From: a virus
DNA: 29,572 nt
IMG/VR virus record: IMGVR_UViG_3300034375_008961
Location: 1 to 29,572 of that record
Direction: 5' to 3' (one strand)
Position 1 is the first letter of the stretch, and each line of letters begins with the position of its first letter. Both the position numbers and the translations under genes were made by a program. This document shows, piece by piece, positions 2,147-14,564 of this stretch. The notes beneath the pieces were generated by a model that was not told the origin of the DNA, ran no database searches, and saw only the letters and a list, made by a program, of their open reading frames with translations.

Positions 2147-3229
2147 ATGGGCCGACGAAATCAAACAGGGGTGCAGGGGATGTATCAGCGATGGCACCGC
2201 AACGCGCGTGGCGAGAAGGTGCCGGGATTCTGGTATTGGCAACCGCCCACGGCCGAGGGACATGCTCGGCCGCAGGCGATGTCGCTGCGCACCAAGTCGT
2301 ACGACGAGGCCGCGGCCATGGTGGGCGACTTGATGACTCGCAGACTTGCAGACGATCGCACCGGCCACCTCGAGGAAGTGGCCGAGCAGGTCGTCGCTGC
2401 CAAACTCAAACACAAAAAGTGGACTCCCAAAACGGCCCGCGAGGCGCGCGCGTCGCATCGGCGACTGATCGCCTTTATGGGCAACCGCAAGCCAGACCAC
2501 GTATCGCGCGATGATCTGCTCCGATGGCATGCGTCGATGCTCGAGGAGGGCCTGTCGGCGGCCAGCGCGGCGCACCATATCCGCCAGGCGCGCTCGGTAT
2601 TCTCGTCGCTGCTTGAGATGGGCATCACAGTGCGCAACCCAGCGGCGGCACTCAGATTGCCGACGGTGCAGTCGTCGAGGCGCGACCGATTCTGCTCGGC
2701 CGAGGAGCGCGACCGCCTGATCGACGCGGCGGCGGATCGGCCGCACCTCCAGCTCATCCTTTACTGCGGATTCCACGCAGGCATGCGCTACGGCGAAATC
2801 GTGCACGCGCGGCCAGAGTGGATTCAGCGATCGAGCGGCGGCGGCGGCTCGATCACCGTCCAGGCAGACGAGGCCGCCGACTGGGTGCCGAAGGGCAAGA
2901 AGGCGCGCTCGGTGCCGCTGTCGCGCGCATTCGCAGGATTCCTCGATCGATTCGATGCGCCTGGGCCGTATCTGCTGCGCCCCGACAAGCCACCTGGCGG
3001 GCGGCACCAGTATCGATACGATGCGAAACGCGCCTTCAAGAATTTGGCAGCGGCGAACGGCCTGCCGTGGGTTACATTCCACACGATGCGGCACACGTTT
3101 GGATCGCTGCTCTCGATTGCTGGAGTCAGCGATTTGAAAATCCGACGCTGGATGGGCATCTCCACAGAGGTCTTCGAGCGCCACTACGCTGGACTCCACC
3201 CCGAGGATCCCGATATCGATCGCATGTGA
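2147..3229 (+). CDS. int: Tyrosine site-specific integrase
   Basis: 360 residues, a typical length for a phage tyrosine recombinase. Residues about 70-170 form a SAM-like core-binding domain (YDEAAAMVGDLM, then LSAASAAHHIRQARSVFSSLLEMG). The catalytic domain follows: Arg214 in GFHAGMRYGEI, a lysine-bearing beta-turn near 249-253 (KGKKA), His312-x-x-Arg315 in FHTMRHTF, and nucleophile Tyr347 in ERHYAGL. The usual His/Trp of the LGHSS box is Ile338 (MGIST), a noticeable substitution. The N-terminus (GVQGMYQRW) resembles an arm-binding domain. The gene lies directly beside attP and points away from it, converging on the early operon with a 6-base gap. It would catalyse integration into a tRNA-Thr gene, probably with the excisionase-like protein at 3582-3794. 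The ATG at 2147 has no clear ribosome site; the ATG at 2180 is a possible alternative. Confidence 0.93.
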   Translation: MGRRNQTGVQGMYQRWHRNARGEKVPGFWYWQPPTAEGHARPQAMSLRTKSYDEAAAMVGDLMTRRLADDRTGHLEEVAEQVVAAKLKHKKWTPKTAREARASHRRLIAFMGNRKPDHVSRDDLLRWHASMLEEGLSAASAAHHIRQARSVFSSLLEMGITVRNPAAALRLPTVQSSRRDRFCSAEERDRLIDAAADRPHLQLILYCGFHAGMRYGEIVHARPEWIQRSSGGGGSITVQADEAADWVPKGKKARSVPLSRAFAGFLDRFDAPGPYLLRPDKPPGGRHQYRYDAKRAFKNLAAANGLPWVTFHTMRHTFGSLLSIAGVSDLKIRRWMGISTEVFERHYAGLHPEDPDIDRM

Positions 3230-5742: not shown

Positions 5743-6003
5743 CTAGTCGCGCTTGCGCACTCGGCGCACTACATGCACGGGCAGGCATGGGCCGCAGTGT
5801 CGATCGCCGCACCGGTCGCAGCGATCGACAGGCCCATCGTCGTCGGCGGAGCAGCCCTCCTCGGCTGCGTGCTCCTTTTCTTCGACTGCCGCTGCGATCG
5901 CGGCCTCGGCGCGGTTGCGACGCCAAGCTCCGAAGAAATACGCGGCCATAAACAATCCAGACGAGATGGCCCAAACTGACGCCAATGTTATCAGCCCCTC
6001 CAT
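5743..6003 (-). CDS. Small membrane protein with CxxC-x4-CxxC zinc-binding motif
   Basis: 86 residues from the ATG at 6003, which overlaps the MarR-like stop (TGATG). One transmembrane segment at about 4-27 (LITLASVWAISSGLFMAAYFFGAW) is followed by WRRNR, suggesting a cytoplasmic C-terminus. An acidic helix comes next, then C62-DR-C65-GDRH-C70-GP-C73, a zinc-ribbon knuckle, and a basic end. The combination of a membrane anchor and a zinc knuckle in an early phage operon is unusual. Its function is unknown; a host-membrane-associated inhibitor or superinfection factor is only a guess. Confidence 0.6.
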   Translation of the reverse strand: MEGLITLASVWAISSGLFMAAYFFGAWRRNRAEAAIAAAVEEKEHAAEEGCSADDDGPVDRCDRCGDRHCGPCLPVHVVRRVRKRD

Positions 6004-6431
6004 CACAGGTAGCTGCCGCGCTCGATCAGCGTGTCCAGCTTGTAGGCGCACGCCGCCTTGAATGCCTCGATATTGCTGCGGCCCTCTGGCAGCAGGTGCA
6101 CGTAGACCACGCGCCTATCGTCATCAGATCGGCGGCGCGCGATCAGCTTTTCGTCCTCCAGGAAATCGATGTGCCCTGCGATGTATTGCGGGGAACAACG
6201 CGCATACAGCGCAAGGTCGGTGCAGCTCGGCGGGTTATCCTCGCCGAGCGTTCGCAGCCGCTCGAGCAGAGCCAGGCGGAACACTGAATACCCGCGCTGC
6301 TGCGCGACCATCATCACCGGGAAAAACGTACCGAGCGCGACGTCGATGCATACCTCGCCCTGCGTTTTTGCCATCGACTCCTCGAGGCCGAGGTCAGCCT
6401 CAAGCTCGGGGCCTGCAGTCGCGAGGCTCAT
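6003..6431 (-). CDS. MarR-like winged-helix transcriptional regulator
   Basis: 142 residues. The winged helix spans about 67-118: CTDLALYARCSPQYIAGHIDFLEDEKLI provides the recognition helix, and RRRSDDDRRVVYVHLLPEGR is the beta-wing with the DxRR pattern typical of MarR. Helices before (VFRLALLERLRTLG) and after (NIEAFKAACAYKLDTLIERG) would form the dimer interface. The start overlaps the upstream stop by ATGA (6428-6431). It probably controls phage or host promoters in the lysogenic or early programme; its targets are unknown. Confidence 0.75.
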   Translation of the reverse strand: MSLATAGPELEADLGLEESMAKTQGEVCIDVALGTFFPVMMVAQQRGYSVFRLALLERLRTLGEDNPPSCTDLALYARCSPQYIAGHIDFLEDEKLIARRRSDDDRRVVYVHLLPEGRSNIEAFKAACAYKLDTLIERGSYL

Positions 6432-7255: not shown

Positions 7256-7368
7256 CGCACAAAAATGCCGGGGCAGGTCTGCACCTGCCCCGGCTCTCCT
7301 TTGTTCTCCCACCGATGGCAGGCAACCACAAAACCTGCCTCGGTTGCGAATTCACTGGCGGCCATCAT
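7252..7368 (-). CDS. 38-aa ORF containing a terminator-like hairpin
   Basis: The frame starts MMAASEFATEAG and ends PGIFVR. Its ATGATG overlaps the RHH stop upstream (7365-7367) and its TGA overlaps the next start as ATGA (7252-7255). That double overlap is the pattern of genuine genes in this operon. Codons about 25-34 form a 12-bp perfect inverted repeat followed by ATTTTTG. It may be a translated leader whose ribosomes control an attenuator, a real small protein, or a spurious ORF over a terminator. Confidence 0.35.
   Translation of the reverse strand: MMAASEFATEAGFVVACHRWENKGEPGQVQTCPGIFVR
7261..7294 (-). terminator. Strong intrinsic-terminator-like hairpin
   Basis: The arms GCCGGGGCAGGT (7267-7278) and ACCTGCCCCGGC (7283-7294) pair perfectly over 12 bp with a 4-base loop. 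On the minus strand the stem is followed directly by ATTTTTG. This is the shape of a rho-independent terminator, oriented to stop transcription from the RHH gene before the rest of the early operon. It lies inside the 38-aa ORF, so it may work as an attenuator rather than a constitutive stop. Confidence 0.7.
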
Positions 7369-7532
7369 GCGTCGGCCTCCTCCTTGTGCTTCTCGATGTC
7401 GGCCACAACCAGGTGCAGCAGGTAGCTGCTCCAGTTCACCCGCTGCGCTGCCCCGTGAATGTTCTCGACCTTTTCGATCAGCTCCTCATCGATCTGCACG
7501 CTTTTTTTTGTCTTCTTCTTCTCAACTGTCAT
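7365..7532 (-). CDS. Small ribbon-helix-helix (RHH) DNA-binding protein, first gene of early operon
   Basis: 55 residues. The N-terminus is basic (MTVEKKKTKK). A beta-strand (SVQI) and helix A (DEELIEKVENI) follow, then a turn (HGAAQRVNW) and helix B (SSYLLHLVVADIEKHK). This is the order and length of a CopG/Arc-type RHH protein, which dimerises through the strand to contact DNA. It is the promoter-proximal gene of the minus-strand early operon and sits opposite a second RHH gene across the control region 7533-7703. Autoregulation is therefore likely. Too short for automatic ORF lists but well supported by structure pattern and by its overlap with the next frame. Confidence 0.65.
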   Translation of the reverse strand: MTVEKKKTKKSVQIDEELIEKVENIHGAAQRVNWSSYLLHLVVADIEKHKEEADA

Positions 7533-7703
7533 GAATCGTTATTTACTGTTGATAACTGCAAAAAAAAAAACGCTCAATGCGCGCCCGCAGCCCTTAATAA
7601 CTGTTAATTATTGTTAATGGTTATTAACCATCTATAACGACGCGTAACGGTTGGCAATCTTTTTTTTCGCCATTTGCGCACTTTTCGGCTAGGGTGCGCC
7701 ATC
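7533..7703. promoter_or_regulatory. AT-rich divergent control region with GTTA/TAAC half-sites
   Basis: 171 bases between two divergent RHH genes, far more AT-rich than its surroundings. It holds an 11-base A run (7560-7570) and at least eight GTTA or TAAC tetramers. A near-perfect palindrome ATGGTTATTAACCAT lies at 7617-7631. A plausible minus-strand promoter is TTGAGC (7572-7577) and TATCAA (7549-7554) with 17-base spacing, leaving a very short leader before the ATG at 7532. No convincing plus-strand promoter was found. Likely operators for one or both RHH proteins. Confidence 0.55.
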
Positions 7704-7898
7704 ATGGCAAAGAAATCCAAGTCTGCGCCAGGCCCTAGTTCCTCCAACAACAGGGTATTTAAAACCAAGTCGATTTCCATACACCCCGACATCCTAGCCG
7801 ATGTCGAGGCCCGCATGGAGAAAGCCAGGATACACTCGTTCTCCGAGTACATCGCGAGCTTGATCAGGGAGGATCTTTCGCGACACAACCCTAAATAA
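7704..7898 (+). CDS. Ribbon-helix-helix (RHH) DNA-binding protein, divergent
   Basis: 64 residues from the ATG at 7704; an upstream in-frame ATG at 7674 would add an implausible cysteine-containing leader. The flexible basic N-terminus (MAKKSKSAPGPSSSNN) is followed by strand TKSISI, helix HPDILADVEARMEKA and helix SFSEYIASLIREDL, the classic RHH layout. It is one of only two plus-strand genes in the window and diverges from the early operon, the position normally held by a lysogeny repressor. It ends just before a 14-bp hairpin shared with SSB. Its role as a phage repressor is inferred from context. Confidence 0.75.
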   Translation: MAKKSKSAPGPSSSNNRVFKTKSISIHPDILADVEARMEKARIHSFSEYIASLIREDLSRHNPK

Positions 7899-13391: not shown

Positions 13392-14564
13392 TTACTGGCT
13401 GGCGGATTCGATCGGCGATTCAGTTTCGACGCGGATGCCATCACGCAGCTGGTCGCGTATCTGCTGCAGCACCTCCACGGGCAGGCTGCCCACTGCTCCT
13501 GCCGCCGCCACGGTGCCACCCACGGCAGTCGCCGATGCGAGGCCAGCGCGCTGCCGAGCGCGCTGCGCTTGCTGCAACCGCATCGTCTTCTCGACCTCCT
13601 TGCGAAAAAAGTGGTCGCGCAGCTCGTCGTCAGGTATCGCACTGATATCCTCCCCATTCACCACACTCGGCGCGACGCCACGCTTCCGGCCTGCGATGAT
13701 ACTATCCGCCAGGACGCGCGCCTTGCGATTCCGCTCGAGCTGGTTCGTCTCATCGCCCGCCTGCCGCGTCGCGTCCGCATTTATGTCGGATTCGCTGCGG
13801 AACGCGCTGCGCAATGCCGCGCCGAACTTGCTCGCAGGATCCAGCAGCTGGTTCAGCAGCTCGAGCATCTGCGGCAGCCAGGTCGCGACCACCACGCTGA
13901 TGTTCTTTTTGAAGTCCGCCATCGCATTGTTCATCTTCTCGATCGACTCCAGCTGCTCGGCGGTCATCACGTTTTTAAGCGCATCGCCCGAGTCATTGAT
14001 TGCGGCCGCTCCGCCCTCGAAGGCCAGCTTGAACTTCTTGGCGTCGTCCTCGAGCAACTTAAACAGGGCGGCGAATGCTTCCTGCTTGTCACCTGCGTTT
14101 GCGTAAGCGTCAGCGAGGGCTAGCACCTGCTTGTCAGGTGAGAGTGCGGCGAACTCCTCGACGTTGAGGTTGAGCCGACGCATCGCCTCGGTAATAGCCT
14201 CGTTGCCATCCTTCGCCTCGGCCAATTTACGGCCCATGCGAACCACTCCAGCGGTGTATTCGTCTACCCCTACGCCCGCTTTCTCAAACGCGTGCTGCTG
14301 ACGCTGGAATGTTTCAGGATCCATGCCCGCCTGGCGCGCCTTCTTGGCGATGCTGTCGTAACCTGTCAGGATGCGATCGAGCACCAACGCGAACGTTCCG
14401 CCGCCTAGCGCAGCGGTCGCCAGCGAGCCCTTGATGCTATCGCCGACGCGCTTCCAACCGGCCTGCGTCTTTTTGCGAAATGACTTCGCGTGGCCCTGCG
14501 CCTTGTCCAAGCCCGCCTTGAACTGCGCCGTTTTGGCCGTGATCCCTACCAGTACTCCGGCCAT
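13392..14564 (-). CDS. Tail tape measure protein (short)
   Basis: 390 residues. Typical tape-measure features are a start resembling GITAKTAQFKAGLDKAQGHAKSF, long alanine-rich helices and coiled coils (about 40-260), and a hydrophobic stretch near the C-terminus (ASATAVGGTVAAAGAVGSLPV, about 343-363). The helical segment IEKMNNAMADFKKNISVVVATWLPQMLELLNQLL resembles tape-measure cores. It starts inside the stop of the previous gene (TGATG). At roughly 0.15 nm per residue it predicts a tail near 58 nm, shorter than most siphophage tails. Confidence 0.8.
   Translation of the reverse strand: MAGVLVGITAKTAQFKAGLDKAQGHAKSFRKKTQAGWKRVGDSIKGSLATAALGGGTFALVLDRILTGYDSIAKKARQAGMDPETFQRQQHAFEKAGVGVDEYTAGVVRMGRKLAEAKDGNEAITEAMRRLNLNVEEFAALSPDKQVLALADAYANAGDKQEAFAALFKLLEDDAKKFKLAFEGGAAAINDSGDALKNVMTAEQLESIEKMNNAMADFKKNISVVVATWLPQMLELLNQLLDPASKFGAALRSAFRSESDINADATRQAGDETNQLERNRKARVLADSIIAGRKRGVAPSVVNGEDISAIPDDELRDHFFRKEVEKTMRLQQAQRARQRAGLASATAVGGTVAAAGAVGSLPVEVLQQIRDQLRDGIRVETESPIESASQ

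Follow-up and report, generated by a model that had tools for sequence, protein, structure and literature searches.

A divergent pair of probably paralogous ribbon-helix-helix-type genes over a 10-bp phased, operator-like array in a very likely temperate tailed phage

Can two ribbon-helix-helix (RHH) repressors take the place of a CI/Cro switch in a tailed phage? RHH repressors act as secondary regulators in bacterial phages, as Arc and Mnt do in P22, and in the archaeal virus SSV1 one of them, F55, is the lysogeny repressor. The question is raised by a locus in a linear virus record of 29,572 bases (61.5% GC), which was analysed over its full length and is hereafter referred to as the window. 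The original prediction had described at this locus two small RHH genes transcribed away from each other, one of them leading the early operon and the other standing alone, and had suggested that they could form a lysogeny switch.

The window encodes terminase, portal, head protease, major head protein and tape measure, as well as primase, SSB and a ParB-like protein. The tape-measure-like protein (13392-14564, minus strand) has 390 residues and is short for a tailed phage. Nearly all genes are carried by the minus strand, the exceptions being the solitary RHH gene and the integrase gene. The record ends inside a helicase gene, of which about half is missing together with a further part of the genome. 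Shine-Dalgarno-like sequences were observed at only 4 of the 23 starts inspected across the window, a scarcity that could reflect either a host with low use of such sequences or leaderless messages.

A tyrosine-recombinase integrase, XerC/D-like in NCBIfam, is encoded at 2147-3229 on the plus strand (Pfam PF00589, E 4.8e-7, above the cut-off), by an ORF hidden beneath a longer one on the opposite strand. Reading by eye and a repeat search revealed beside it an attP-like segment (1975-2063) that contains the 3' half of a tRNA on the minus strand, with an anticodon loop TTTGTAA corresponding to Thr-UGU and a canonical T-arm (ATCGG-TTCGAAT-CCGAT). This half is bracketed by two exact 12-nt repeats, TAACTCGTTGAT, at 1975 and 2052, and repeats of TTGCTGCAG are found at 1935 and 2118, within the stretch between primase and integrase (1894-2146). 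ARAGORN and Rfam did not call the tRNA half, which was also absent from the other viral contigs searched. Since the integrase adjoins an attP-like tRNA half, the phage is very likely temperate, as judged from gene content, and hence needs a repressor; integration itself is predicted.

The two genes of the original prediction correspond to ORFs for 55 and 64 aa. RHH-A (7365-7532, minus strand, 55 aa) opens the early operon, which runs leftward, in a Cro/Arc-like position, and heads a run of leftward genes that includes a MarR-family and a ParB-like gene. RHH-B (7704-7898, plus strand, 64 aa) is a solitary rightward gene in a CI/Mnt-like position; its likely start is the ATG at 7704, and the mechanically defined ORF starts at a TTG at 7674. 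The locus lies between the lysis genes and the early genes. The remark that no CI/Cro-type HTH repressor was seen in the window agrees with the lack of any HTH_3 match in the record, which is incomplete. The original prediction had overlooked, though, a MarR-family winged-HTH regulator (6003-6431, minus strand; Pfam PF01047, E 3.5e-8, above the cut-off), which belongs to the operon that RHH-A heads and has no relative in the phage collection. With the record truncated within the helicase gene, a CI-type gene may also be located in the missing part.

The likely identity of RHH-B as an RHH protein is one at the level of the fold. Its structure model (pLDDT 79.6) has two helices, at residues 28-41 and 46-61, which follow an extended segment; the RHH core spans approximately residues 22-61 and is preceded by a basic N-terminal tail. 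When the model was compared with the PDB, the majority of the 40 best matches were RHH proteins, led by NikR (probability 0.93, E 0.41) and including CopG, MatP, ParD and Arc, none of them at E<0.001. Sequence comparison of RHH-B gave z 10.3 for its likeness to a ParD antitoxin and z 15.4 for that to an ORF on an Opitutaceae plasmid. The model places RHH-B close to RHH proteins of the NikR/ParD type. In the case of RHH-A, the GC content by codon position (0.59/0.25/0.79) is like that of coding genes, and the AlphaFold model calculated without an alignment consists of one long helix, uninformative on the fold. Its assignment as an RHH protein therefore comes from its similarity to RHH-B. In fact, the 40 residues of the RHH core can be aligned between the two proteins without a gap, at 28% identity (E 1e-4, for a single comparison), a score reached by none of 20,000 shuffles, and they are reciprocal best matches among the 452 ORFs of the window. 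On these grounds, RHH-A and RHH-B are probably paralogues. Neither of them was recognised as an RHH protein at a convincing score by the family libraries, and the Pfam profile RHH_1 matched neither. These negatives are weak evidence against such an identity, because the same profile fails to detect the Arc and Mnt proteins of P22 as well, and RHH_1 was dropped as a test of RHH identity for this reason.

The gap between the two genes (7533-7703) is 171 bp long and has a GC content of 41%, as compared to 61.5% for the window. Nine GTTA/TAAC sites were counted in it, one more than the minimum of eight half-sites of the original prediction, and dinucleotide shuffles averaged 2.2 and never exceeded 8 in 5,000 trials; the density of these sites in the gap is the peak across the whole window. 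The palindrome that had been pointed out, ATGGTTATTAACCAT (7617-7631), has perfect 7-bp arms about one central base. It is contained in an operator-like array (7594-7653) made up of six 10-bp units, TTAATAACTG, TTAATTATTG, TTAATGGTTA, TTAACCATCT, ATAACGACGC and GTAACGGTTG, each with TAA(T/C) in the identical place, in exact 10-bp steps. The longest TAA[TC] run obtained in shuffles, with any period from 6 to 14 allowed, was four (in 4 of 20,000), as compared to the six observed. This motif was picked after the region had been viewed, and a motif-free periodicity test was added, which gave about 0.0005, allowing for nine periods. No segment of the window scores higher for a period of 10 than the array, nothing comparable occurs elsewhere, and the scan of the window found no second copy before the integrase gene or the late genes. 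The strongly non-random order suggests that the array is operator-like and that its units are candidate binding boxes. A second inverted GTTA...TAAC pair (7538-7556) lies near the start of RHH-A and overlaps a possible -10 element. A possible hairpin formed by the DNA of the gap (z -1.1) was discarded as ordinary, and so was a terminator-like site at 7586-7568, which is at chance level. Long A/T tracts are present in and around the region (7502-7509, 7559-7569 and 7660-7667), possibly as bends or UP elements.

Promoters can be assigned here only as weak guesses. A standard sigma-70 scan of the region passed no clear promoter. The top loose sigma-70-like site for RHH-A, TTGAGC-N17-TATCAA, runs from 7577 to 7549 on the minus strand and is below the threshold of that scan. 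For RHH-B, a putative weak promoter, TCGCCA-N17-TAGGGT (7667-7695, plus strand), is suggested by a loose consensus score; it ends 8 bases before the ATG, so that a leaderless transcript is possible.

Relatives of the locus were sought in several collections. For RHH-A and RHH-B, the viral contigs, phages and plasmids yielded either nothing or weak matches, and the same holds for RHH-B in the genome contigs; a homologous locus with the same layout was not found in the viral and genome collections searched. Searches by means of the ParB-like protein, terminase, primase and portal retrieved a near-identical 4.8-kb fragment, Moulinsart-type phages and primase-only matches, and tblastn revealed no RHH or MarR proteins encoded at these related loci. 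The 4.8-kb viral contig (L003) agrees at about 100% identity with the terminase-portal-protease segment of the window and does not include the RHH locus; its sequence marks it as a second record of this virus. Judged by terminase and primase, the closest relative with an annotation is the temperate Akkermansia phage Moulinsart, which is distant and has an annotated integrase-like gene. The regulators annotated in Moulinsart are found in the equivalent position, between the lysis genes and the early operon, and their HTH matches are themselves weak. An unannotated RHH-like ORF on a plasmid of Opitutaceae TAV5 (L046, 7983-8198, plus strand) is 42% identical to RHH-B and has a ParA-like ORF at a distance of about 0.6 kb. 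Since the viral and genome collections searched yielded no relative of either protein, comparison does not bear on the function of the RHH pair, which is read from the anatomy of the locus.

The reading that we favour, at somewhat short of an even chance, takes the locus as the divergent control region of a tailed phage that is temperate, in which the paralogous RHH pair competes on the shared array and so controls the early operon. Dimers of RHH-A and RHH-B would both bind the six boxes of 10 bp, each turn of the helix taking up one dimer, and binding would be cooperative and take place on nearly one face of the DNA. With RHH-B predominant, the array would be filled, the early promoter repressed and the prophage quiet, as with CI or Mnt. 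RHH-A, once produced from the early operon, would compete for the same boxes and turn down first RHH-B and later its own operon, as Cro or Arc would. An operator read by two RHH proteins is consistent with the probable paralogy of the pair and the RHH-type model of RHH-B, with an array beyond chance, with the half-site pair near the start of RHH-A, with RHH-A at the head of the leftward genes, with a locus position like that in Moulinsart, and with what is known of RHH dimers and of F55 in SSV1. Against it stand the MarR gene in the operon, the missing portion of the genome, the occurrence of a single array, the failure of the searches to retrieve relatives that share the layout, an RHH fold that the model of RHH-A did not reproduce, and the want of a clear sigma-70 promoter. 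The further proposal, that the whole lysis-lysogeny decision is taken by two paralogous RHH repressors on a helically phased six-box operator, without a CI/Cro-type HTH repressor, we regard as clearly less likely than not. The lysogeny switch of the original prediction is sustained in part: the related pair, the non-random region, the lack of an HTH_3 match and the temperate phage all fit it, but that the pair decides lysogeny is a proposal, given the MarR gene in the operon, an incomplete record and the lack of relatives.

The main alternative is that the RHH pair is accessory or autoregulatory and only times the early operon, immunity being provided by the MarR-family protein or by a CI-type repressor encoded in the missing part. 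This is a real though lesser possibility, at about one third. The MarR-family gene is a possible immunity repressor located in the operon itself, the sequence breaks off within the helicase gene, and in P22 the divergent RHH pair of immI is secondary to C2/Cro. However, the record contains no HTH_3 match, the RHH locus occupies the usual place of the switch, and RHH-A leads the early operon itself, unlike arc, which leads ant in P22. Considerably less probable is a role of the AT-rich array in replication, as an origin, or in partition, with the RHH proteins acting as replication or partition factors of the CopG or ParG kind. The iteron-like repeats and A-tracts, the DnaA-box-like TTATCAACA at 7547-7555, the adjoining SSB gene and the ParB-like gene of the operon would suit such a role, as would the neighbourhood of the best RHH-B look-alike and a ParA-like ORF on the Opitutaceae plasmid. 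Yet DnaA-box-like sites occur at chance level (8 in the window, 7.9 expected), the GC skew shows no reversal at 7.5 kb and no ParA is seen in the window; moreover, plasmid partition is unneeded, since the phage has an integrase and an attP-like site. Finally, RHH-B is very improbable as an orphan ParD-like antitoxin, with the pair as a toxin-antitoxin remnant that regulates only itself, since in spite of its likeness to ParD it does not have the long C-terminal toxin-binding tail of ParD, and no RelE/ParE-like toxin lies beside either gene, the neighbours being SSB and a protein of 166-184 aa without a family match.

If the RHH pair and its array were a master switch, a duplicated RHH gene and a 10-bp phased operator would represent a different fold arriving at the logic of CI/Cro, and the locus would offer a testable system in which two similar proteins read the same boxes. 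Prophage searches keyed to CI-type repressors would overlook switches of this kind; standard family searches missed both RHH-A and RHH-B.

Among known systems, the immI region of P22 is similar in that Mnt and Arc, short RHH repressors homologous to each other, are encoded divergently over a shared operator region, with one gene alone and the other leading an operon. This likeness is one of layout only. The operator region measures 90 bp in P22 and 171 bp here, and the operators of P22, a single palindrome in each of two places, show no 10-bp period, whereas here an array is present; the P22 pair, moreover, controls the antirepressor. Pairwise comparison of RHH-A and RHH-B with Arc and Mnt gave z values of 0.9 or below, that is, no sequence similarity, and the Arc-like domain PF03869, which Arc and Mnt match at 1e-30, was found in neither protein. 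By sequence, both are outside the Arc/Mnt family of P22. The CopG/ParD/NikR-type repressors provide the best fold matches and the sequence likeness of RHH-B, but the partner toxin, the nickel domain and the plasmid replication gene that go with them are absent here. The likeness to lambda CI/Cro is by analogy, as divergent regulators on one multi-site operator region; those are HTH proteins with 17-bp operators, none of which was seen in the record. In AFV6, AvtR (gp29) and the RHH gene gp30 likewise share an inter-promoter region: the oligomerising protein protects about 100 nt between promoters, and activation or repression by AvtR depends on its concentration (PMC5569661). That virus is, however, filamentous and archaeal, AvtR is monomeric and contains two RHH motifs, and no lysogeny switch is involved. 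Cooperative binding to several sites is a known property of RHH dimers (PMC5569661). F55 of SSV1, an RHH protein of 55 aa, is responsible for maintaining lysogeny and recognises sites made of tandem repeats in early promoters (PMC5569661; PMC9608457); it differs in being a single protein of an archaeal virus that acts on several promoters through the repeat ATAGATAGAGT, with no paired paralogue described there. In its layout the locus resembles P22 mnt/arc and the AvtR pair, and in its proposed logic SSV1 F55, and by sequence it is a member of none of these three.
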